64,000 bases of DNA from an uncultured Cohaesibacter sp. GTDB taxonomy: Bacteria; Pseudomonadota; Alphaproteobacteria; Rhizobiales; Cohaesibacteraceae. The stretch is from positions 558,001-622,000 of the forward strand of contig NZ_OY762934.1 of the NCBI RefSeq assembly GCF_963667045.1, in the 5' to 3' direction. Below the pieces are notes generated by a model that did no database searches, was not told the DNA's origin, and was given only the letters and a program-made list of their open reading frames with translations. This document shows, piece by piece, positions 12,915 through 59,947 of this stretch. How positions within the stretch are numbered: position 1 is the first letter of the stretch; the number at the start of each line of letters is the position of its first letter. A program made the position numbers and the translations under genes.

Positions 12915-13004
12915 TGGCGGAGAGGAAGGGATTCGAACCCTCGAGACAGTTACCCGCCTACGCCCTTAGCAGGGGCGCGCCTTCGACCACTCGGCCACCT
13001 CTCC
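12915..13004 (-). tRNA. tRNA-Ser (anticodon GCT)
   Basis: On the minus strand the sequence starts GGAGAGGTGGCCGAGTGG, has the anticodon loop CTGCTAA (anticodon GCT, Ser codons AGC/AGU), a long variable arm (GCGGGTAACTGTCTC), T arm GAGGGTTCGAATCCC, and acceptor end CCTCTCC followed by GCCA, so the 3' CCA is encoded. The length of 90 nt fits a class II tRNA. The gene is intact, but its 5' half is the attachment repeat, so sequence upstream of it is now phage DNA. Confidence 0.97.
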
Positions 13005-13007
13005 GCG
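12962..13007. repeat. attL: attL: 46-bp core shared with attR, in 5' half of tRNA-Ser
   Basis: Identical over 46 bp to 59,902-59,947; the match ends at T versus G after 13,007 and at C versus A before 12,962. It runs from three bases upstream of the tRNA 5' end through the anticodon loop. Tyrosine recombinases often cross over at the anticodon arm. Confidence 0.95.
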
Positions 13008-13348: not shown

Positions 13349-16300
13349 TTATCGCGGCGCAGTCTTGGCCCCCCTCTCCCCCACCGTTGCATCCGCGAAG
13401 CCGGACGCCGCCGAGTAGGACGAGCCGTAAACCATAGCCGCGTACCGGGCCAGCCAGCTCGCCGGGCCGGAGGTCTCAAGAGCGCTAAGCCCAATATTGA
13501 GCGCCGGGACCATCGCCAGCCGGTAAACAGACTTCATGGCCGTGTGCTCGGCGGTATTCGTGCTGGCCGAGTTACGAGGCCCCCACGGGCTGCCGTTGAT
13601 GATGTTCTGAATATCGGCGAACGCCGTCGTCAGGCCGGGGCCTGCCCACATGGACGTCAGGTCGCGCTCGTACTTCAGGCCGGTATAAGCGTTATAGAGC
13701 GGATCGAACGGGCCGAAGACGCCCGTCCGGGTCAGCGTCAGCTTTGCCAGCCAAGAAATCTGGTCCTTGTCTTTCTTGTGCTTATCCCACTGCTCGCTCG
13801 AAAAGGCCGCTTCGCGGGCCACTGCGATTGCGAACTGCGCCGCGTAGAGCTGAGCGAAGCCGAGGGCGAGCGTCCGTCCTACATGCCCGGCAGCTCGCAT
13901 TCCGGCTTGCTTCCGACTCTCGCCGTGCTTGATGCCGGTTTCGTACTTCATCTTGGCAACGTTCATGTTATAGAGATGGACGTTGCGGAAAAACGTATAG
14001 AGGAACGCCGTCAAAGCATACATCGAGCGGCCCACCGGAGACGCGGCCATCATCGGCTTATCAACGCGCCGGGGGTTCTGGATCGTCTGGTCGATGAACC
14101 GGGAGATCGCGTCCGCGTAGACCCGGCCCTCCCGCGTCTCCCAGTCCGCCAAAGACGGCAGCCCGTCCTTGGAACGGGCCCAAGCGATCATGTCCTCCAT
14201 CTGGTGCTCCGGAATACCCTGATCACGGAAATGGTTCTCAATGATCTCCTTGTCCGCGCCGGTCGCTTTCTCGTGCCGGACGGCCAGATCGTGGAGCCAG
14301 AAATGCGCCCCGACGAAGACGGCCCGGCGCTGGGCGTTGGTGAGCTGGGCAAGGCCGTTGGCCCGGAAGAACTTGGCCAAGATCGAGTTACCGACGCCGA
14401 CGTGGCCGAAGTCCCCGTTAACGCGGTTCATCAGGACGACGTCGTGCAGCGGCGTGGCCACAAGACCGATCTGCCGGGCAATTGCGGCCCGCTCCTGCGT
14501 GTCCTTGGCCTCGCGGAATGCTTCCTGCATATACGCGTGCATGACTTTCATGGACGTCTTGAACTCTCCCGTCCGCATGTAGAAGGTCATTGGCTCTGTC
14601 AGGGCGGTAACAGCCGCGCGGGGCAGCAGCTTGATGTATGTGTAGAGATAGACACCAGCAGCGAACCGGCTCATGAAGTGGTTGACTAGGCTCTGGTCCT
14701 TGCGCCCTGTTACGTCCTGAACATAGCCACGAGCATGCTGCACGTCCTCGCCGTTGGCTCCGAACTCCTGCGCCTCCCACAGGGCCATCTCCAAGATGTT
14801 GTCCGTCTTGGGGTTGGCCAGATCGTTCAGGATGTTGAGACGTCCTTGCGCGGTGTCGGCGTTGTACTTGTTCGGGTTGGCCTTGATGCGGTGCTGCACG
14901 TCCGGGCGCTTGATCACGTCCCGGAGGCGCTTGACTTCTGAGCCGGACTTGCCGAAGCGCTCTTGGTACGCAACCCGCGAATAGACGTCATGGGCGTAGT
15001 TGAGCGTGGAGTGGAGGACGTCCGTGTCGTACCAGTCCTTCAGCATAGCGTCGGCCTCCGGCGGGAGCGTCCGGGGCTTGGTAAAGTTTGTGCTTGGGCC
15101 GTGGCTGTCATAGGTCGAGCTGTCGCCGATCAAGATGCGCCCGGCCCAATCGCGGGCCGCCCTATTGGCGTAGGCCGGTTTCAGCTCGTCCAGCAAATCC
15201 TCTTGCGCCTTTTTGATATCGGCCTCTGCAGCTGCCTCTTCCTGCGGAGTTTTGGCCTTCTTGAGGTCTTTCTGGGCTTTGCGGACCGCCTTGGTAAGCG
15301 CCGTCAGAGCCGGATTTTCGAACTCGAACTGCCGGGCCAGCTTGACCGCCGCGTCCGCGTCCAGATCGCCCCGGAAGTTTTCGAACACGGTTTCGTAAAC
15401 CTTGATCGCGTCCCGCACGAACGCCTCGACGTTCTGCTGAACACGCGCCCGGACAATAGAGCGCGGGAGGTAGCCCTTGTCCTCAACATAGCCGACGTCA
15501 ATACCGGCCTCAGTCGCGGCCCGGTAGGCGTCGTCATAAATGCGGCGCAGCTCGGCGGCGACGGCAATGTGGTCCGGCGTCGGCGTCTTGCCGGGCTTCT
15601 CATTGATCATCAGGGACCGGATAATGTCGGCGTCCTCTGTCGAAAGGCTTTCCCGGAAACCGTGGTTTAGCAGCGTGGATGACATGCGGTTGGCCACCTT
15701 CAGGGCTTCGCGCTCACGGGCCTCTTCAAACGTCACCCCTTGGTTCTGCTTGCCTGTGCCCGGATCGGACATGATCTTCGAAAAGATATGATCGAGGAAC
15801 GGCTGCGCGTCCTTTGGCTGGCGCTTGTTGATCGCCTTCAGCATCCCACGGGACGAGTAGGCAAGGAACCGGGAGACGTCCGCGATCCGGCGCATTGACT
15901 CTCGCAGCCCGTCGCGGTCCGTCGGGACGCCGACGCTCTGCAAGTAGGCCGCCGTGGACATGAGCGCACCTTTCGCGGTCGGGCGTTTCCCGTCAGCGAG
16001 GTTCTTGCCCATGTTGATGATCCGCTGCGCTTCCGTCTTGAGCTGGGCAGCGAACCCCTGCTCTCCCCGGAGGGTGGCCAGCTTGTTCCAGTTCTGCGGA
16101 GCAAGCAAGTCCCGCGCGTCCGGAGCCTTGGCTGCGGCATCACTGCCGAAGAGCTGCTGGTTGCGCATGAGGTCAAAGATATCATCGAAGGCCGCGAAGA
16201 TGCGCAGCCGGTCAGCTGCTTTCGGGAAGGTCTTGGCCAGACGCGTGTCCGCGTCCGAAAGGTAGGCTTTCTCCCCCTTGGTAATGAAGGCGTTATCGCC

Positions 16301-19000
16301 ATCATTCGCGGCGACACGGCTGGCGACATACGCCTCGAAGGCGCGGGCCATCAGCTCATGGACGCTCGCCCAATAGCCGCCGCCGCCGTACTCGGCGCTG
16401 TTCTTGCGGTATTCGCTAGGCTTGATCTTCAGGCGGGTGTTGCCCGCAGTCAGCCGCTCGATCTGCATCTGCGCGGCGATTGCCTTCTTGGTCGGGTTGC
16501 CCTGCTTGTCCACACTCTGGGCGTCCCGTTCCAGCTTGGCGACACGCACGGCGAGGTCCGCGTCATCAAAAAACATGGTGTTGACCAAGTGGGCGACCGA
16601 CGCCTCAAGGCTAACAGACGGGTCCATACCTTCCGCACGGGCGGCGCGGGTCGCCAGCGTTGCGCTGCTGTTCGGCTTGAGCTGGTCAAGTAGGTAGTGG
16701 TCGAGCGCGTGGCCCCATTCGTGCGCAAACGAGTTGGAACGACCTGGCATGTGGATCGTCTTCGTCTCCGGGTTATACGCGCCGAAGTACGCGCCGTTCT
16801 TGCGCTCAAGGGATACGTTGACGCGGCCCCCAAGGCTGATAGCGGTCGCCGGGATATTAAGCGAATGCGCCATCATCTGAAGGTTGTTAAACGCGTCGTT
16901 CATCTGGTCCACGCTGTCCACGATGGACGCGGGCCGCTTGGCGCTACGGGTGACGTCAAGGTCAAACTGGTTCTTCAACGACCGGGCCAGAACGTTGAGC
17001 TTTTGCTTTGGCGGGAGCAGAACACCCTGATCCGGATCAAGGCCAGCAGCCCGGAACGCGCCGGTAAACTTGGACGCGCCGGTGGAGTACGACACGTCCT
17101 CTGTCTGCGGCGTAAGCTTTCCCGTCGGTGCGCGGGACGCGTTGTCCGCGAACATGCCGTCCACGGCCCCAAAATCACCCTCGCCCGTATTCGTTTCATT
17201 TGTATCGAAAAGGGTTAACTGGCTACCATTTTCATTTGCAACGGCTTTTTTCTTACCTTCTGATTTTGTGATGTTATCCCCTACGCCTGCCCCCGAAATA
17301 CCCGCTTCATCCGGCCCTTCTTCAGGCTGACTTTTTTGGTATTCAAAATCAAATTCGCCCTGAGCTGGCGCTGCGCCTTCGGGCTGGGCAACCGGCTCTT
17401 GGGTGCCTTCGGCAGGGGCATCAGCCTGCAAAGTGTCGGGGCTGTCAGCGGGAACAGCTTGCACGTCAGGAACAGCAGGTTCAACAGGTAAATCATTCGC
17501 GGCCTCTCCGGCGGGTGCTTCGTTGTCGTAAAGGTCTTCAGCCATCTGCTGCGCGAACGCCGGGGGCTCAGTCCCCTCCGGTTCGGCCGCTGCTGCTGGC
17601 TGGGCTTTTGTCAGGGCGTCAACCGGCTCTCCGGCTACGCGAGCGCCAGCCCGGCGAGCCATGACAATGCCGGGGACTTCAACAGCCGCTCCGGGGACTT
17701 CTGCAACGCCTTCGAGCATGACCTCCGCAGGGGAGTTGATTTCGCCGGTGGAGGCGAGCTGCGCGGTCGCTTCACCGGCGGAACCGCCTGCGCCCTGTAC
17801 GACTGCTTCGGCCCCCGCCCCTGCGAGCTTTGCGCCGGTCTGACCCATGCGGGACGTAGCGCGGGCAACTGGCCCGGCCACCTTCCCGGCGAGGCCGCCG
17901 CTAATCATGTCAAAAACGCCGACGGACATGCCGCGTTTTGCTGCATAGTCGCGGGCCTGCGCCATGACCTCCGGGTTCTGGATCGCAGCGACGAGCGTGT
18001 CCCGATCTGCGGCGTAGCCCTTGTCTTCGAGGAAGCCGGTGATTGAGTTCAGAAATTCGGTTGCGCCGGAGGCAGCGCCCGCGCCTACCGCGCCACCCGC
18101 TACCGTCCCGACGCCGGGGACTGCGGAGCCCGCCATCGCGCCCAAGGCCGTGCCGCCCACGGTCGCGCCAATGGTCGGTAGGCTCTCCATGGCGACCTGT
18201 GTGACGACGCCGGGATTGGTCACGGCTTCGCCCAGCATGCTACCTGTTGCCTTGGCAACGTCCCACTTGCTGGCGTTCGGATCGTTCCACGTCTCTTTGA
18301 CCCGGTCGCCTGTGGTGAGGATGTTCTGCATGGCCGCTGCGTCGTCCGGGTGCTGCGGGTAACTCTCCGCCTCCGCTTTGTCCTTGAGATACGCGTCCAC
18401 GAATTCGTCCGGGTTCAGGATGCCGGAAGAAAGACCGATAACGTTTGCCGCTTGGTCCATCGTGTTGTTCTTGCCACGCCCCAGCGGGTTCAGGACGTAG
18501 CGATCAAGGAAGCCCATGTCCTTTGGATTGGGGGTGTTGATATTGCCGATAGTCTCGAACTCGTTGGCCCCGTCCACCTCTGCACCGAGGGCGCTAGACC
18601 GCTGTTCGGCGAACTGGACTGCTTCATCGATAGACCCAAAGCCGCGCAACTTCGCGCCGGTTTCCGGATCAAAGCCGCCATTCGCGGCGATGATATCCGC
18701 CGCCTCAGCATCCCCGACGATTTTGCCGCCGAACATGGTCGGGATGTTGGTGGGCATCCCGCCATTAATGCGGTCGTCCGTGATCGTAATGGTCCGCTCT
18801 GTGGAGACGCTGCCGTCCTCGTTGCCGACAATCGGGCGGCCCCCCTGTGTCGTGCCAAATACCGCGCCGGTGGAAGCGGGCATAGTCTTCTGGGAGTTCA
18901 CGTTGCCGACCAGCTCGAAACCGCCGAGCCCCGCGTCCGTAGGCGCAGGCGTCGGCGCAGCGGAGTTCACGTTGCCGATCAATTCAAATTCATTATCCAT
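13349..19000 (-). CDS. Giant internal/ejection protein, 1,883 aa, zincin-like domain, polyvalent architecture
   Basis: The largest gene in the window and the last of the late operon. The N-terminus has three copies of an FE-x-IGN-x-N motif (near residues 4, 27 and 145). A TITITD...NGGMPTNIPT...GKIV domain follows, of a type common in phage ejected proteins. Residues about 275-315 are a Gly/Ala-rich hydrophobic stretch that could cross a membrane. A Pro/Glu-rich linker leads to a metallopeptidase-like domain with HEWGH near residue 760 and HELMARAFEAYV further on, as in large polyvalent proteins (LPD1-like). The remaining 1,000 residues contain helical regions resembling other LPD domains. It is probably packaged and ejected with the genome, as the T7 gp15/gp16 proteins are; the enzymatic role is inferred. 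Confidence 0.75.
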   Translation of the reverse strand: MDNEFELIGNVNSAAPTPAPTDAGLGGFELVGNVNSQKTMPASTGAVFGTTQGGRPIVGNEDGSVSTERTITITDDRINGGMPTNIPTMFGGKIVGDAEAADIIAANGGFDPETGAKLRGFGSIDEAVQFAEQRSSALGAEVDGANEFETIGNINTPNPKDMGFLDRYVLNPLGRGKNNTMDQAANVIGLSSGILNPDEFVDAYLKDKAEAESYPQHPDDAAAMQNILTTGDRVKETWNDPNASKWDVAKATGSMLGEAVTNPGVVTQVAMESLPTIGATVGGTALGAMAGSAVPGVGTVAGGAVGAGAASGATEFLNSITGFLEDKGYAADRDTLVAAIQNPEVMAQARDYAAKRGMSVGVFDMISGGLAGKVAGPVARATSRMGQTGAKLAGAGAEAVVQGAGGSAGEATAQLASTGEINSPAEVMLEGVAEVPGAAVEVPGIVMARRAGARVAGEPVDALTKAQPAAAAEPEGTEPPAFAQQMAEDLYDNEAPAGEAANDLPVEPAVPDVQAVPADSPDTLQADAPAEGTQEPVAQPEGAAPAQGEFDFEYQKSQPEEGPDEAGISGAGVGDNITKSEGKKKAVANENGSQLTLFDTNETNTGEGDFGAVDGMFADNASRAPTGKLTPQTEDVSYSTGASKFTGAFRAAGLDPDQGVLLPPKQKLNVLARSLKNQFDLDVTRSAKRPASIVDSVDQMNDAFNNLQMMAHSLNIPATAISLGGRVNVSLERKNGAYFGAYNPETKTIHMPGRSNSFAHEWGHALDHYLLDQLKPNSSATLATRAARAEGMDPSVSLEASVAHLVNTMFFDDADLAVRVAKLERDAQSVDKQGNPTKKAIAAQMQIERLTAGNTRLKIKPSEYRKNSAEYGGGGYWASVHELMARAFEAYVASRVAANDGDNAFITKGEKAYLSDADTRLAKTFPKAADRLRIFAAFDDIFDLMRNQQLFGSDAAAKAPDARDLLAPQNWNKLATLRGEQGFAAQLKTEAQRIINMGKNLADGKRPTAKGALMSTAAYLQSVGVPTDRDGLRESMRRIADVSRFLAYSSRGMLKAINKRQPKDAQPFLDHIFSKIMSDPGTGKQNQGVTFEEAREREALKVANRMSSTLLNHGFRESLSTEDADIIRSLMINEKPGKTPTPDHIAVAAELRRIYDDAYRAATEAGIDVGYVEDKGYLPRSIVRARVQQNVEAFVRDAIKVYETVFENFRGDLDADAAVKLARQFEFENPALTALTKAVRKAQKDLKKAKTPQEEAAAEADIKKAQEDLLDELKPAYANRAARDWAGRILIGDSSTYDSHGPSTNFTKPRTLPPEADAMLKDWYDTDVLHSTLNYAHDVYSRVAYQERFGKSGSEVKRLRDVIKRPDVQHRIKANPNKYNADTAQGRLNILNDLANPKTDNILEMALWEAQEFGANGEDVQHARGYVQDVTGRKDQSLVNHFMSRFAAGVYLYTYIKLLPRAAVTALTEPMTFYMRTGEFKTSMKVMHAYMQEAFREAKDTQERAAIARQIGLVATPLHDVVLMNRVNGDFGHVGVGNSILAKFFRANGLAQLTNAQRRAVFVGAHFWLHDLAVRHEKATGADKEIIENHFRDQGIPEHQMEDMIAWARSKDGLPSLADWETREGRVYADAISRFIDQTIQNPRRVDKPMMAASPVGRSMYALTAFLYTFFRNVHLYNMNVAKMKYETGIKHGESRKQAGMRAAGHVGRTLALGFAQLYAAQFAIAVAREAAFSSEQWDKHKKDKDQISWLAKLTLTRTGVFGPFDPLYNAYTGLKYERDLTSMWAGPGLTTAFADIQNIINGSPWGPRNSASTNTAEHTAMKSVYRLAMVPALNIGLSALETSGPASWLARYAAMVYGSSYSAASGFADATVGERGAKTAPR

Positions 19001-37445: not shown

Positions 37446-37475
37446 CAAAAAAGCCCGGCGGAGATCCGCCGGGCT
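37446..37475 (-). terminator. Rho-independent terminator downstream of the 38-aa gene
   Basis: AGCCCGGCGGA / TCCGCCGGGCT forms an 11-bp inverted repeat (37452-37462 with 37465-37475); on the minus strand it is followed by TTTTTT (37452-37447). It separates the AAA+/VWA operon from the small terminase gene. Confidence 0.85.
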
Positions 37476-37502
37476 TATTGCTTGTGATTTGCTGCGCCTG
37501 TC

Positions 37503-37619
37503 TCAAATGATCCGGTTGATCACCGGGAGCATTACAAAGCAAGAGATGAAAAGGACTGCCGCGATAAACAGCCAAGGTCCGAATAACTCTATGAGCCGGT
37601 CTTTGGTCCTCCTGCTCAT
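37503..37619 (-). CDS. 38-aa membrane peptide coupled to the VWA gene
   Basis: ATG at 37619 overlaps the VWA gene stop (ATGA) and is preceded by GGGGAG eight bases upstream. The product reads [16 protein letters not shown] followed by a hydrophobic helix LFIAAVLFISCFVML and a short PVINRII tail, so one membrane span with a basic cytoplasmic N-terminus is predicted. A strong terminator begins 28 bp after the stop. Translational coupling suggests it works with the AAA+/VWA pair or serves as a small lysis or superinfection peptide; function unknown. Confidence 0.6.
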   Translation of the reverse strand: MSRRTKDRLIELFGPWLFIAAVLFISCFVMLPVINRII

Positions 37620-39727
37620 TTGGTCAGCTCCCCGGCGAGTAGCTCGCGCTCAAGCGCTTTCGGGAGATCGGCCAGATCATCAATGCGCGCCCATCCGGCC
37701 GCCCCGAAAACAGCGTCTAGGCCGCACTGCAAGCCGACCCCTAAATGTTGGATACCCTGCCGCTGCTGGTGCGCTATCTCCTGCGCAAAGGCCCGCTGGC
37801 CCCTCTCCCCCCGCTCGTTTGGCTCGCCATCGCAAAGCCACAAACAAACGCGACGTTCGGCCCGTTGCGCTATTAGCTGCGCACCGGCCCAACGCATCTC
37901 TCGAAGCATCGGCGTTCCCGCTGAGGGCAAGCCGGAGGACAGGACGCTGGTAATGCGCTGCGCCTTGGCTTTTTGTGACCATGCTTTGACAATGCCAACA
38001 GTCGCCAAGGCGTCCTGCCCAAAGCCCCCTTTTCGGCCATTGTCGTCGTATTCGGCATTGGCGAACACGGCCAGCGAACATTTAGCGCCTGCGCGTTCGA
38101 TGGCTTCCAGCGTTTGGGCTGTCGAGGGTAGGACAGCCGCCCAACGGGTTGTCTCGATGCCGCCGGGTAATAGGACTTTGTCGTTCATGCTCCCCGATCC
38201 GTCCAGCATGATCAGTATTGCCGTTGTCATGCCCACGTCGTGGCGGCGCTGGCTGAAAACGTCCATTGCGCCGGTCTGCATCCGGGCGATAGACCGCCGG
38301 TCCATCCTGCCGGTTGACTGGCGGCGGCTGTGCGTGACCATCTCAACAGATTTAAGACCACGGCGGAGCGCATCGGCTAACGCTCTCGTGCTGGTCTGCT
38401 GCGCGATTGCGGCCAACTGCCCTTGGATTTGTGTTATCCGGTCGCCGTAGTAGACCTGCGCCGCCGAAAATGACCGCGCAAAGGCGTCGCAATCGGCAGC
38501 GCGTGCAAGCCCGGAGGGCAAGCAAGCGGCCTGCGTATCCTCTGGGGTGACGTTGGGCGCGGCTGATGCCAGCGCGGCCTGCCTCATGGCATCCGGGTTG
38601 ATATTGGTCCGGGCCTGCTGGCCCTTGCCGTCCTGCTGGCCCTGCTGGCCCTTGCCGTCCTGCTGGCCCTTGCCGTCCTGCTGGCCCTGCTGGCCCTGCT
38701 GGCCCTGCTGGCCCTGCTGGCCCTTGCCGTCCTGCTGGCCCTGCTGGCCCTTGCCGTCCTGCTGGCCCTGCTGGCCCTGCTGGCCCTTGCCGTCCTGCTG
38801 GCCCTGCTTGCCCTTGCCGTCCTGCTGGCCCTGCTGGCCCTTGCCGTCCTGCTGGCCCTTGCCGTCCTGCTGGCCCTTGCCGTCCTGCTGGCCCTTGCCG
38901 TCCGGCTGGCCCAGCTGCTGCCGCTGCTCTAGCGTGTCCAGCGCTCGCAGTGCGGCCCCTATGATTTCATATCGCACGGTGGTCGCTGCCTTGCGGCGCC
39001 GGGGTGCCTGATCTACTTGCAAGAGATCGCGCATTGCCCGGTCAACAATCGCCCGAACATCCTGCCTTGAGGCGCGGAGCGCGTCCTTTTGCAGCGCGTC
39101 AAGGGCTGGCGTGTCCTGCTGGCCGTGGTCATTAATCCGGGAGCAAACAATAGCGGTGGCGTGCTGAAATACGTCCCCGGCGGTTGCCCTAATGCTGTCC
39201 GCGATGGTGCCTTGGCACTCGGTCACGTACATCAGGTCATTGAGACCGCCAAGCAACGCGGGAGCATTGCCGGTAAACAGTGCGCCCGGCGCGGTCCCTG
39301 CGGTTTCAATAAAATAGTCCTCCAAGGCGTTCATAACACCATGATATCGTGGATAGTTCGCGCGGATATCAATTGCCCTGCCTGCCCTCTCGATATCCCG
39401 AAGGACATGCGCAATAACCGGGTCGAGTACGACGATATCAGTTAGCAAAATATGCAAGGTCTCATGAATGATTAGCGCGATTGTGCGCTTAGCCATGTCG
39501 GACGTTATGAGCGTATGCACCGGGATAGCCGGTAGGCTCATGTTGATTATGTTATTGCCTGCGTCCAGATCAACGGACGCTGTCATGTCCGCACGGTTGG
39601 CGCGGACACAAATTTTAGGGTTGCGGCCTTGGTTGGCCAGCATGGCGCGGACTGTAGAGGCGGCGGCTTCCACGAATTCGCCATATTCAACGCGCCCTGT
39701 CCAGTCGTAAATCGTTAGGCTTTTCAT
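37616..39727 (-). CDS. VWA-domain protein with putative metallopeptidase N-domain (MoxR partner)
   Basis: The 703-residue protein has an N-terminal zincin-like region with HETLH (88-92) and NALED (133-137), the arrangement of the putative metallopeptidase domain seen before VWA in DUF2201/CobT-like proteins. Residues about 275-375 are a Gly-Gln-Gln/Asp-Gly-Lys low-complexity linker. The C-terminal VWA domain has an intact MIDAS: DGSGSM (about 505-510), a later Thr (AGTPML) and CDGEPNE. VWA proteins of this type work with MoxR-family AAA+ ATPases as chaperones or metal-inserting machines. The ATPase gene lies 15 bp upstream in the same operon. Role in the phage is unknown. Confidence 0.8.
38618..38915 (-). 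repeat. Degenerate 9/12-bp tandem repeats encoding the GQQ/DGK linker
   Basis: About 300 bp of near-identical CTGCTGGCC and CTTGCCGTC words (plus strand) encode alternating GQQ and DGK. Such arrays change length easily; the array length should differ between related phages. Confidence 0.85.
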
Positions 39728-39742
39728 TGGTTTCCACCCCTG

Positions 39743-41266
39743 TTACGCGTTAAGTTTTGCGGTTTGCACGTTGGCGGTCCAAAGCTGCCGCATCGGTTCT
39801 TTGTCGTCGTGTGGCGCGGTCTCGATCACCGCCAGTTGAAAGGCGCAATCGGCGTCAACACCGTTGACAATCTGCCGTGCAAGCGCGGCCAAACGCCTAA
39901 ATCCGAGCCCGTGCGATAGGTGCCCATCCCCTGTCTTGGCACGAGTGATCGCGGCAAAGCTGGCCAGCATTTTCGACTTGTTGAGTTCAAGCCCGGTGCG
40001 CGATTGCAAGGCGTCCGCCTCCTGATCCGCTGGCAGATAGTCGAGCTTTACCGTGATATCTGCCCGATCCAGAAAAGCTCGGTTGAGCCTGCGCGTGCTC
40101 TCATACGCTCCACTTTCGTCGCCGGTCCCGTTGGTGTTATCCGCCAAAATAAATACAACGTCCTCAGCGCACCGGATAACTTCGCCGGTTTCTGCAACGT
40201 GCATTGCCCGGTCCCCATCAAGCAAAGCCTGCAAGACAAACAAAGCGCCTGCGCGCGCGACGGACGGTTCATCGATTAAGATGATTGTGCCCGGCTTGCG
40301 GATCGCTGCGGCCAACTGGCCGTCCTGCCATTTAACGCCATCCTTGCCATTGGGGACGGTCATCCCTGTAAGCGTTGCGGCTTCCGTCTGGTCATCGCAA
40401 GAGATGCGGACAAAAGGTCGGCCATAGTGCGCGGCCAACTGCTGGGCAAAGGTGGTTTTGCCTGTGCCTGCTGGGCCATACAAAAACACATTGCCGCCGG
40501 TTGCGAGCGTCGAAACAATTGGCCCTGTCGCTGCTGGCCAAATATAGTCCGGGTCAATTTCCGGGCTTTCTGGCGTCTCGTAAACCGCCATTTTTGTTTT
40601 GGCGTCGTTCACCCGCATGAGGGACGGGATACCAAGGCTTTTCAGCGTGGCGTCACCGGTGCATTTCGGGATAACGCCTTTGATCTGGTCGGCGCTGTAA
40701 GCCGCTGCGGCCTGCTTGATGACTTGCGTTTTAGGCTCCAGCGCCTTGTGCGCCATATCGTTTAGGGCTGCATCAAATCCAGCGTAGTCGCCGATGGCCA
40801 ACTTAGCCCGGATATCTTGGACCAGTTTTACCGCCGGGTCGTCTTTGGTGCCCTGCTTGGTGTCCTCTTCTGCCTCGGCGTCCTCTTCTGCCTTGGCGTC
40901 CTCTTCTGCCTTGGCGTCTTCTTCTGCCTCGGCGTCCCCCTGCTGGCTGGCTGCGCTGCCGCCGGTCAGGTCTGGGACTCCCGCCGCAAATTCAATGCCC
41001 CGCCCCCCAAGGCCAAAAGCTGCGGCTATTGTGTCGGCTGCTGTAAAGCACTCCCTTGCCTTGCGTCCTGCCTGCTTTGCCTCTTCATAGGCTTCGCATT
41101 CGACCACCTGCGGGATATCAAGCCCGCATGCTGCGGCGATTTCCAAAAGCTCGGCCTTGGCCAGTGCGGATACTGACCGGCCATTGAGCGCGGTTGCGGA
41201 CTGGGAGTGCCTGCGGACTCGTGCCCGGAGGATTGCGCGTTGGCTGTCGGTGAGCTGGGTTGCCAT
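39743..41266 (-). CDS. MoxR/CobS-type AAA+ ATPase
   Basis: The 507-residue protein has Walker A GPAGTGKTTF (about 264-273), Walker B LIDEPSVA (about 330-337), a sensor Asn in FILADNTNGTG and an arginine-rich STRRLNRAFLDRAD segment, typical of MoxR/CobS-family AAA+ proteins. The N-terminal 115 residues contain a Lys/Ala helix region and an acidic A-E-E-D-A-K repeat (about 115-140). Its partner is the downstream VWA protein. It is the first gene of a leftward operon whose promoter (TTGACG-N17-GATAAG) lies in 41330-41352. Confidence 0.85.
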   Translation of the reverse strand: MATQLTDSQRAILRARVRRHSQSATALNGRSVSALAKAELLEIAAACGLDIPQVVECEAYEEAKQAGRKARECFTAADTIAAAFGLGGRGIEFAAGVPDLTGGSAASQQGDAEAEEDAKAEEDAKAEEDAEAEEDTKQGTKDDPAVKLVQDIRAKLAIGDYAGFDAALNDMAHKALEPKTQVIKQAAAAYSADQIKGVIPKCTGDATLKSLGIPSLMRVNDAKTKMAVYETPESPEIDPDYIWPAATGPIVSTLATGGNVFLYGPAGTGKTTFAQQLAAHYGRPFVRISCDDQTEAATLTGMTVPNGKDGVKWQDGQLAAAIRKPGTIILIDEPSVARAGALFVLQALLDGDRAMHVAETGEVIRCAEDVVFILADNTNGTGDESGAYESTRRLNRAFLDRADITVKLDYLPADQEADALQSRTGLELNKSKMLASFAAITRAKTGDGHLSHGLGFRRLAALARQIVNGVDADCAFQLAVIETAPHDDKEPMRQLWTANVQTAKLNA

Positions 41267-41452: not shown

Positions 41453-41517
41453 GTCACTGGACAACCCGCGTTGCGCGGGTTAGCCTTCCGGGCAGTGACG
41501 GGACAACCCGCGTTTTT
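41453..41517 (+). promoter_or_regulatory. Attenuator-like leader with alternative hairpins
   Basis: CGCGGGTT (41474-41481) can pair with AACCCGCG upstream (41463-41470) or with an identical AACCCGCG downstream (41505-41512), which is followed by TTTTT. An outer GTCACTG/CAGTGAC pair (41453-41459 with 41493-41499) supports the first fold. The second fold looks like a terminator. The leader precedes the gene at 41541. Confidence 0.45.
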
Positions 41518-41540: not shown

Positions 41541-42095
41541 ATGCTCGAAGACGAACAGTTCGGCCTGAACAATGAAGGACACTTAGGGCACAAAAACAAA
41601 AGCGGAAATGGCCGGGGAATGACGACGGCGTCTAAGACGGCTTTAGACGCCTTTAGAAGCGGAACCCAGCTCGGAGGTCCGAACATACGCCGATGCAAGA
41701 GGTGCAACCGTGTGGCCGTCCGTGGGCTCTCTGTGTGCTTTTTCCACGGGGGCGCTCAGACCGTCTACAAGCGCAAGGGTCAAGAAAACGACATGACCAA
41801 GCACAGACGGGTGCGCAACAGGATCAGCGGCATGTTGCGCAACGGCAAGGTGCCCTTGGAGCTGATCCGCCAACCCGTGTTTCAACGGACGTGGGCCGTG
41901 GCCTCGCCGCGCCGGAACAATCGGGAGCCGATGCCGGTGGACATGTATCGGCGCTGTGTCGCCGCGCGGTTTCTGGCGTGGGAGCTAATAACGGCGTGGG
42001 CTCTTTTGGTGGGAGGGGAGGACGGCTCGCAGAACGGGGACGTCAAGCCTTGGGCGATGGCGGTCTCCAAAGCCAGAAAGCTCGGAATTGTCTAG
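41541..42095 (+). CDS. Small zinc-binding CxxC/HGG protein, 184 aa
   Basis: Residues about 50-72 hold RRCKRCNRVAVRGLSVCFFHGG, that is two Cys, a third Cys and a His before Gly-Gly, a pattern found in phage HGG-type zinc-ribbon proteins. The rest is basic (GRGMTTASK, KHRRVRNRISGMLRNGK) and could bind nucleic acid; residues 130-165 are helical (MYRRCVAARFLAWELITAWALL). It is the only rightward gene between the late operon and the primase gene and has its own leader. Function is not established; a transcription or DNA-metabolism factor is plausible. Confidence 0.65.
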   Translation: MLEDEQFGLNNEGHLGHKNKSGNGRGMTTASKTALDAFRSGTQLGGPNIRRCKRCNRVAVRGLSVCFFHGGAQTVYKRKGQENDMTKHRRVRNRISGMLRNGKVPLELIRQPVFQRTWAVASPRRNNREPMPVDMYRRCVAARFLAWELITAWALLVGGEDGSQNGDVKPWAMAVSKARKLGIV

Positions 42096-44999: not shown

Positions 45000-46085
45000 C
45001 TAGTTGGAATTGTCTCGATTTGGCCGGGCGTTCATGGCGCTGCGCAGGTATTCCGGCTGAAGGTGTTTATAGTGCTTTTCGACGGTCTCATATGTGTCCC
45101 CCAGCACGTCCGCGATGTGGGTCAAGCTCACGCCCCACTGTGCGCGGAGGGTCGCCCACGTTCGCCGAAGGTCGTGGCGGGTGGAGTTGAAGCCGTGTTG
45201 GTCACGAAAACGGCGGAAGGAAGTATCCGTCCCGGCGCTAGACCCAAGCACGTATTTGTTATCTTTCCGTTCCCGGTTGCTCAAATCAGTGAGTATCGGC
45301 AACAGCCGGTCTGAAATTGGCACAGGCACCCGGCGTTTCTTCGTCGCCCGGCGATCCGGGTCGCGGAAATCGAGCAAGCCCTCGTTGAGATGGACGCGAT
45401 CCCAAGTCAGCGTTTCGATAGCTTCTGACCGGGCGGCCGTCTCAAGAGCGATGCAGATAAAATACCCAATCCGCCGCCGATGAAAGAACGTGTCAGACAG
45501 CGCCAGCTCGGACGCCAGCTTCCACATGCGCTCTTCCTCGTCTTCGGACAGGACGTTGGTCCGCCCGCCGCCGCCTTCCGGCAGATCGAACTTTGGCAGG
45601 GCATAGCTCTCGGGGATCAGCTTACCCTTGTCCTTGGCCCAGTTCAGGACGGCGCGAAACGCGCCAAGCTGGCGGCGCACCGTCCCCGGCTTGATGCCTT
45701 CCGCTTCTCGCGTCTTGCGGTGAGCGATGATGGCGTCCGGGGTAATCTCGCTCAAAAGGTAGTTGCCAAGGTATCGATCGATGATCCGCAGGCTGAAGCG
45801 TTGGCTTTTGTTGACGCCTTCGACGTCAATATACTGCTCAGTGTATGCCTTGATCAGGGAGCTGATGGTCGGGTCACTCTCAACGGCGAGCTGTTGGGCT
45901 ACCTGCTGTTGGGCCGCGAACCACGTAACGCGGACAGCTTTCGCCTCATTAGCGTCTTTTGTGCCACACGAGTAAGTACGCGTCCTTGCGCGTCCGGTGT
46001 CAGTGCGTTCGGTCCATCTGATCTCGAAGTATCCGTCTCGGTTTGTTGCGAGCCTCGTGTCTTCGATACTACTGGGGCAGAGCAT
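45000..46085 (-). CDS. int: Tyrosine recombinase (phage integrase)
   Basis: The 361-residue protein has an N-terminal arm-binding region (NRDGYFEIRWTERTDTGR), a core-binding SAM-like domain (70-165) and the catalytic domain with Arg219 (AARSEA), Lys249/250, His304 and Arg307 (RHDLRR) and nucleophile Tyr339 (EKHYKHL). The usual second His/Trp position in the LGH box reads LGD (330). It should recombine the 46-bp att core at tRNA-Ser. Unusually it lies in the middle of the prophage, 14 kb from attR. It overlaps the HTH gene upstream by 187 bp. Confidence 0.93.
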   Translation of the reverse strand: MLCPSSIEDTRLATNRDGYFEIRWTERTDTGRARTRTYSCGTKDANEAKAVRVTWFAAQQQVAQQLAVESDPTISSLIKAYTEQYIDVEGVNKSQRFSLRIIDRYLGNYLLSEITPDAIIAHRKTREAEGIKPGTVRRQLGAFRAVLNWAKDKGKLIPESYALPKFDLPEGGGGRTNVLSEDEEERMWKLASELALSDTFFHRRRIGYFICIALETAARSEAIETLTWDRVHLNEGLLDFRDPDRRATKKRRVPVPISDRLLPILTDLSNRERKDNKYVLGSSAGTDTSFRRFRDQHGFNSTRHDLRRTWATLRAQWGVSLTHIADVLGDTYETVEKHYKHLQPEYLRSAMNARPNRDNSN

Positions 46086-59901: not shown

Positions 59902-59947
59902 GCCCTTAGCAGGGGCGCGCCTTCGACCACTCGGCCACCTCTCCGCG
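59902..59947. repeat. attR: attR: second copy of the 46-bp att core (tRNA 5' fragment)
   Basis: Identical to 12,962-13,007. It carries only the tRNA 5' half (acceptor 5' strand, D arm and anticodon loop) and cannot make a tRNA. Confidence 0.95.

Follow-up and report, generated by a model that had tools for sequence, protein, structure and literature searches.

In jumbo phages of group 2.2, a MoxR AAA+ gene was described beside a gene in which a von Willebrand factor type A (VWA) domain is fused to an N-terminal metallopeptidase, and a role in assembly and processing was proposed for this fusion, with Acidianus two-tailed virus as the analogue (Iyer et al., 2021; PMC7824862). The pair is carried by haloviruses too (PMC7911831), and MoxR-VWA conflict systems have been described (PMC7159879). 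The viral CobST of tailed viruses was read as cobalamin genes, and the peptidase annotation was called mistaken (Liu et al., 2021; PMC8651126). NorQD acts on the membrane-bound cNOR, and twisting was proposed for metal insertion (PMC13036017). These statements follow the available text of the cited papers. The operon described here lies in a 64,000-nt stretch of an uncultured Cohaesibacter sp. (contig NZ_OY762934.1, positions 558,001 to 622,000 of the forward strand), referred to as the window. It encodes an AAA+ ATPase, a CobT-like VWA protein with a zincin-like N-terminal domain (N-domain) and a single-span peptide of 38 amino acids (aa). We propose, with a probability of about 40%, that it makes a membrane-recruited three-part AAA+ metalloprotease. 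An earlier note on this DNA had regarded the pair with its membrane peptide, within the late region, as no standard phage module; the AAA/VWA-zincin pair is already in print for tailed phages (available text of PMC7824862 and PMC8651126), and what is added here is a lineage-specific membrane micropeptide. The features of the operon are as follows.

39743..41266, minus strand: AAA+ ATPase of the MoxR/CbbQ/NorQ type, 507 aa (Pfam, PHROG, residue conservation)
37616..39727, minus strand: CobT-like protein, 703 aa, with zincin-like N-domain, linker and VWA domain (sequence; family profile against cellular CobT)
38915..39727, minus strand: N-domain, residues 1-271, predicted to be zincin-like (AlphaFold2 model)
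39452..39466, minus strand: HETLH, residues 88-92 (H88, E89 and H92 in 16/16 aligned relatives)
39305..39331, minus strand: NALEDYFIE, residues 133-141, with E136 as proposed third ligand (E136 in 15/16, D137 in 16/16)
38615..38908, minus strand: GQQ/DGK low-complexity linker (sequence; predicted local distance difference test, pLDDT, mostly 30-40)
37619..38230, minus strand: VWA domain, residues about 500-703 (closest solved structures are the NorD VWA)
38189..38203, minus strand: metal ion-dependent adhesion site (MIDAS) DGSGS, residues 509-513, completed by T605 and D633 (residue conservation)
37503..37619, minus strand: 38-aa single-span peptide with basic N-terminus (open reading frame (ORF), hydropathy, analogues in relatives)
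37451..37476, minus strand: intrinsic-terminator-like hairpin ending the operon (11-bp stem, T-run on the minus strand)
41453-41472 and 41495-41514: two 20-nt direct repeats upstream of the AAA gene, a possible operator

The AAA gene is followed after 15 nt by the VWA gene, the ATG of the peptide gene overlaps the VWA stop codon (ATGA), and the terminator comes next. The three genes probably share one transcript. The coordinates given for genes and frames in the earlier note were exact, and the strong terminator it placed after the operon is present as a pattern. The operator-controlled promoter it described is less certain: the 20-nt repeat GTSACKGGACAACCCGCGTT has 2 matches upstream of the AAA gene against 0.02 expected, but the promoter scan lists no minus-strand sigma-70-like promoter there. 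No third copy of the repeat was found in the window with up to 3 mismatches allowed. A hairpin accompanies the repeats between the AAA gene and the divergent gene.

The AAA protein was matched by Pfam AAA_5 (1.3e-18) and by CbbQ_C (21.3 bits, cut-off 20.6), and its best phage family was phrog_249 (9.5e-53), named 'porphyrin biosynthesis'. Residues G264, G269, K270, D332, E333, N377, R396, R401 and R457 are found in 8/8 aligned sequences and T271 in 7/8; we take these to be the Walker, sensor and arginine residues. Matches and residues agree with the MoxR class assigned before. The N-terminal part of about 230 aa has no assigned fold, and a SAP-like domain suspected there was not supported.

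For the VWA protein, an intact MIDAS, a 300-bp linker and a zincin-like HETLH region had been claimed, and all three were borne out, the zincin-like fold as a prediction. D509, S511, S513 and D633 are kept in 16/16 relatives and T605 in 14/16, and the linker is about 290 bp long. H88, E89, H92 and D137 are invariant in all 16 sequences, and E136 is kept in 15 of them. The VWA protein alone had no Pfam match above cut-off (VWA_2 at 0.11); in the 16-member alignment CobT_C was matched by 8 and VWA_2 by 11 sequences. The best solved matches of the VWA domain were the NorD VWA in NorQD (E 1e-10).

The AlphaFold2 model of the N-domain (16 sequences) reached a pLDDT of 85.2 and a predicted template modelling score (pTM) of 0.85. 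It consists of a helix (15-32), three strands (38-44, 51-55 and 60-66), the HExxH helix (76-95) and a helix bearing E136 (121-145). A zincin core of a three-strand sheet, the HExxH helix and a distal E on the next helix is given in the available text of PMC5512222, and the predicted model has this core. HExxH was found in 26/26 distinct proteins from a pattern scan using the MIDAS only, a count free of pattern bias. Its hidden Markov model (HMM), however, derived from HExxH proteins, and five of these proteins (L415, L416, L417, L420, L441) come from contigs whose VWA gene had been met before. A second count of 61/61 is biased, as its search patterns touch the HExxH region. The motif also occurs in 10/10 VWA proteins from named phages and plasmids.

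The family profile (A5) matched cellular CobT (9uka) with 1.7e-32; the match runs from the NxxED helix across the VWA domain. The profile-profile alignment of the N-domain (hhalign) against 30 cellular CobTs was collinear, with an E of 4.5e-5 and a probability of 69%, a single and weak comparison. At the aligned place HExxH occurs in 0/30 cellular CobTs vs 16/16 aligned phage relatives, the CobT and CobS sets being the best 30 of 41 matching genomes, with 11 weaker ones, some of them divergent, left out. At H88 the cellular proteins have A/S/Q/P/G (mostly A/S), at E89 mostly I/F/L/V/Y and at H92 R/K/Q/E (mostly R/K), and the position of E136 is E in 28/30. HEPAH was seen in one CobT ORF, in the stretch ahead of the CobT start. 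CobTs without HExxH at the aligned place are expected if HExxH is the working site in the phages.

In the tree of AAA proteins (73 rows), 28 cellular CobS form one clade with a support of 100/99, and all 45 phage AAAs lie outside it. Among the latter, the window AAA falls within a phage clade of 15 rows (95/92). The rows are CobS and phage AAAs, the CbbQ set having dropped out, and the long branches make the deep joins unsure. From these data we infer that the phage AAA/VWA proteins are probably not chelatase subunits. CobT may be a dead relative, the direction of the change being unproven.

The 38-aa peptide recurs in position among close relatives. A micropeptide was scored if it started -20 to +12 nt of the stop codon, was 22-60 aa long and had a mean hydropathy over 18 residues of at least 1.9. 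It was found after the VWA gene at 9/10 distinct close-clade ends (window, L040, L041, L042, L044, L127, L129, L130, L131 and L135, deduplicated by hand); L135 is without a peptide at the VWA end and has one after the AAA gene. The nine peptides are 27-47 aa long, and 8/9 have a net positive charge ahead of the span. Control ORF ends carried a micropeptide in 5/468, 14/635 and 1/140 cases (pooled 20/1243; Fisher P ~5e-15 against the close clade), in three sets that share a few contigs and were not mutually deduplicated. L160 and L165, VWA ends with a peptide, were removed from the controls (7/470 to 5/468). The micropeptide is a clade-specific third gene.

The first set comprised 38 VWA-HMM rows, redundant contigs included, of which 23 had a micropeptide. 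Beyond the ten ends, it was present in L136/L137, L139 and L141, and in L140 with a TTG start only; L142/L145-L147, L143, L144, L148, L149, L150, L152, L156 and L007 had none. The L142 group has a 55-aa ORF 7 nt past the VWA stop with a hydropathy of 1.89, just below the cut. After AAA genes, peptides were found in 5/56 rows, three of them distinct (L042:2949-3053, L043 after 8488 and L135 after 5251). The viral contigs L127, L129, L130, L132 and L134 begin inside the VWA gene past the N-domain, which hides the rest of the operon; the linker repeats perhaps break assemblies.

In the proposed machine, the AAA+ protein would, judging by its family, assemble into a hexamer, which would engage the VWA protein in the manner of NorQD. 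The MIDAS would bind the target protein, and the AAA ring would pull or twist the VWA domain or linker, so presenting the target to the zincin-like N-domain, which would cleave it. The 38-aa peptide, whose translation would start at the VWA stop and whose basic N-terminus presumably lies in the cytoplasm, would anchor the complex to the inner membrane; alternatively, it could tether a membrane substrate. Membrane tethering by the peptide is plausible. The three-part membrane reading is supported by the conservation of MIDAS and ATPase residues, the NorD-like VWA domain, the action of NorQD on membrane-bound cNOR and the recurrence of the peptide. FtsH consists of a membrane anchor, an AAA+ motor and an HExxH zinc protease. 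The likeness to it lies in the proposed layout only, an analogy without homology: three genes are found here, and no M41/FtsH family was among the Pfam matches of protein P0002 or among the 25 of 37 listed for P0001. A wider reading, in which phages and plasmids carry a live AAA+/VWA metalloprotease with CobT as its dead offshoot, and the membrane-tethered three-gene form here converged on the FtsH plan via the 38-aa anchor, is somewhat unlikely.

The likeness to the jumbo-phage pair is an AAA+ gene beside a VWA gene with an N-terminal metallopeptidase domain. By this description the window protein belongs to the same type (HExxH, conserved E/D, zincin-like topology); the two are likened by description only. 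The pair here sits in a temperate phage genome about 46.9 kb long and has a coupled micropeptide, none being mentioned in the available text of PMC7824862. With viral CobST, read as cobalamin enzymes with a mistaken peptidase annotation in the available text of PMC8651126, the gene pair is the same, but the phage proteins keep the peptidase motif. The NorQD pair shares the order of N-terminal domain, linker and VWA domain and has the structurally closest VWA domain; it inserts metal, and the available text of PMC13036017 describes no zincin motif. CobT is alike from the NxxED helix through the VWA domain and differs by lacking H88, E89 and H92, and CobS forms a separate clade. Literature searches, judged by titles and opening lines of abstracts in a collection with few subscription papers, turned up nothing about the micropeptide or about CobT as a dead zincin.

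Several results weigh against the proposed membrane protease. Zinc binding and proteolysis by the N-domain are predictions, and Foldseek searches of the N-domain against solved structures returned nothing at E≤0.001. The best relevant weak match was SPRTN (6mdw, probability 0.38), another was BlaR1, and the two BFVD matches at E≤0.001 were an unnamed protein and a phage CobT. The micropeptide criterion was chosen when the first cases were already known, and the searches yielded no further independent close-clade member on which to test it. In the wider family, a second hold-out gave a peptide at 5/57 new distinct VWA ends and 0/67 AAA ends; the 57 ends, two of which derive from L409, were left from 104 rows once 7 lacking MIDAS, 16 from contigs met before and 24 near-duplicates had been dropped. 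This exceeds the pooled control (P 0.004), and the micropeptide as a general feature of the family is refuted by it. Of the three VWA ends from a TerL-based hold-out, two came from contigs met before; the new one, L296, was negative. The peptide is also absent at the VWA ends of L152 and L156, and in named phages and plasmids it was found at 0/10 VWA and 0/10 AAA ends. With Mae-Yong1326-1 (see below), L152, L156 and L296 added, the close clade counts 9/14. Because the peptide is clade-specific, the pair works elsewhere without it. The single-span peptide described earlier recurs in place and topology, not in sequence; the micropeptides do not visibly align. Synonymous-change counts for two peptide pairs (2 synonymous and 0 non-synonymous; 2 and 3) contain too few changes, and the window peptide has no PHROG family.

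Relatives were collected from IMG/VR contigs, at first six AAA relatives, then 25 VWA and at least 48 AAA loci, along with TerL relatives. Most refuting conditions of the earlier note failed: the pair is present in related phages, and the HETLH region has a predicted zincin-like fold. They were found with alignments, as the VWA or AAA protein alone gave no close relatives among viral contigs and the VWA protein alone nothing among genome contigs. In the best 80 of 206 genome-contig relatives only the AAA part was matched (26-32%, best segment), and other searches with the VWA protein matched, its own genome aside, the linker or VWA part only. The VWA alignment at 1e-10 matched its own genome and one other among 385 genomes of the class; because of these 2/385, the module looks rare in chromosomes. 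TerL was 56-70% identical to that of the window in 8/8 contigs, which had been chosen for carrying the pair. The module as core to the lineage was not upheld, since only 7 among at least 80 TerL relatives showed AAA/VWA in the fetched flank, many contigs being short. In L218 and L219, ORFs resembling the window integrase and primase by eye lie upstream. Microcystis phage Mae-Yong1326-1 (PMC9503304, available text) has the same gene order; its CobS is 44% identical to the AAA protein over 344 aligned columns, and its CobT keeps HETLH. A 29-aa single-span ORF follows CobT there, with one 74-aa gene between. Among 11 named phage or plasmid stretches the complete pair is visible in 9; pAsa4 shows the VWA gene only and P70 the AAA gene only, with no VWA motif in the three ORFs following it.

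These contexts bear on the view that the pair is a virion-assembly chaperone with a processing protease, which remodels and trims a structural protein. Such a role was proposed for the jumbo phages with the same fusion (available text of PMC7824862), and in the window lineage the operon shares its strand with the late genes, with TerL a few kb away. A collagen-like gene, tail by resemblance, is the next long one on the operon strand in L040, L041, L042 and L044. A general assembly role is disfavoured by the named stretches: 9/11 have replication or recombination genes (RecA-like ATPase, ligase, primase, polymerase, clamp, RuvC, YqaJ, toprim), none shows a gene annotated as virion (although many are hypothetical), and two are conjugative plasmids, which make no virion. 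CRP-810 has a repair glycosylase and an integrase, and Camerico a methyltransferase. On balance this explanation appears unlikely. In the conjugative MOBH plasmids L204 and L205, the HExxH-VWA gene adjoins a DUF3150 gene, and a YqaJ recombinase or toprim is nearby. The peptide could also be a small holin unrelated to the pair, given its single span and basic N-terminus and an M15 endolysin gene about 0.9 kb downstream; the protein scans gave no holin family, no dedicated holin search having been made. However, the terminator separates peptide and endolysin gene in the window, a peptide comes after the AAA gene in L042, L043 and L135, and a collagen-like and other genes lie between the VWA end and TerL in L216-L219, which makes a lysis protein quite improbable.

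A chaperone resembling NorQD, whose N-domain binds a target or metal without cleaving, would fit the VWA domain closest to NorD, the AAA score above the CbbQ_C cut-off and metal insertion by twisting as proposed in the available text of PMC13036017. We consider it improbable, as the tested mobile forms keep HExxH and the chelatase homologue does not. A CobST accessory chelatase that works with the host CobN and boosts cobalamin was proposed in PMC8651126 (available text) and draws on the homology to CobT; the host encodes a CobN/Mg-chelatase-family protein. It also has its own CobT and an adjacent AAA protein in the CobS clade already, the phage AAAs lie outside that clade, and the N-domain has a protease motif that CobT lacks, so this role is very improbable. 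The protease reading is favoured because HExxH, E and D are kept across the mobile-element family and HExxH is lacking at the aligned place in the 30 CobTs, and it is better supported than the chelatase reading.

The window sits in a chromosome of 5.24 Mb. The operon is part of a prophage of about 46.9 kb flanked by a perfect 46-bp direct repeat (attL/attR, 12962-13007 and 59902-59947), an assignment based on this repeat at tRNA-Ser, the integrase and TerL.

12915-13004: tRNA-Ser(gct) gene, overlapped by the first copy of the 46-bp repeat
45000-46085: integrase, within the prophage (family searches)

Other prophage genes encode a primase-like protein, an SNF2 helicase, a family A polymerase, TerL and the M15 endolysin. 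The neighbour called a small terminase in the earlier note had no match above any cut-off in family searches, and no link of the operon to a giant ejection protein was found. A giant 1883-aa protein (13349-19000, minus strand) matched Pfam LPD1 (2.8e-14). Its HEWGHALDH motif, of the polyvalent-protein type, gives this phage a second motif resembling that of zincins. The divergent 184-aa gene (41541-42095, plus strand) matched phrog_3678 (0.00019) and has a CxxC-type motif; in the relative L222, an ORF resembling it by eye adjoins the AAA gene.

The widespread phage 'cobS/cobT' genes have been assigned to vitamin B12 or taken for chaperones of assembly; an AAA+ metalloprotease is favoured by the data. 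Should CobT be a dead protease, it becomes a concrete hypothesis that a metal chelatase arose from a protease that remodels proteins. A real micropeptide would mean that a 38-aa gene, easily missed in annotation, can move such a machine to the membrane.

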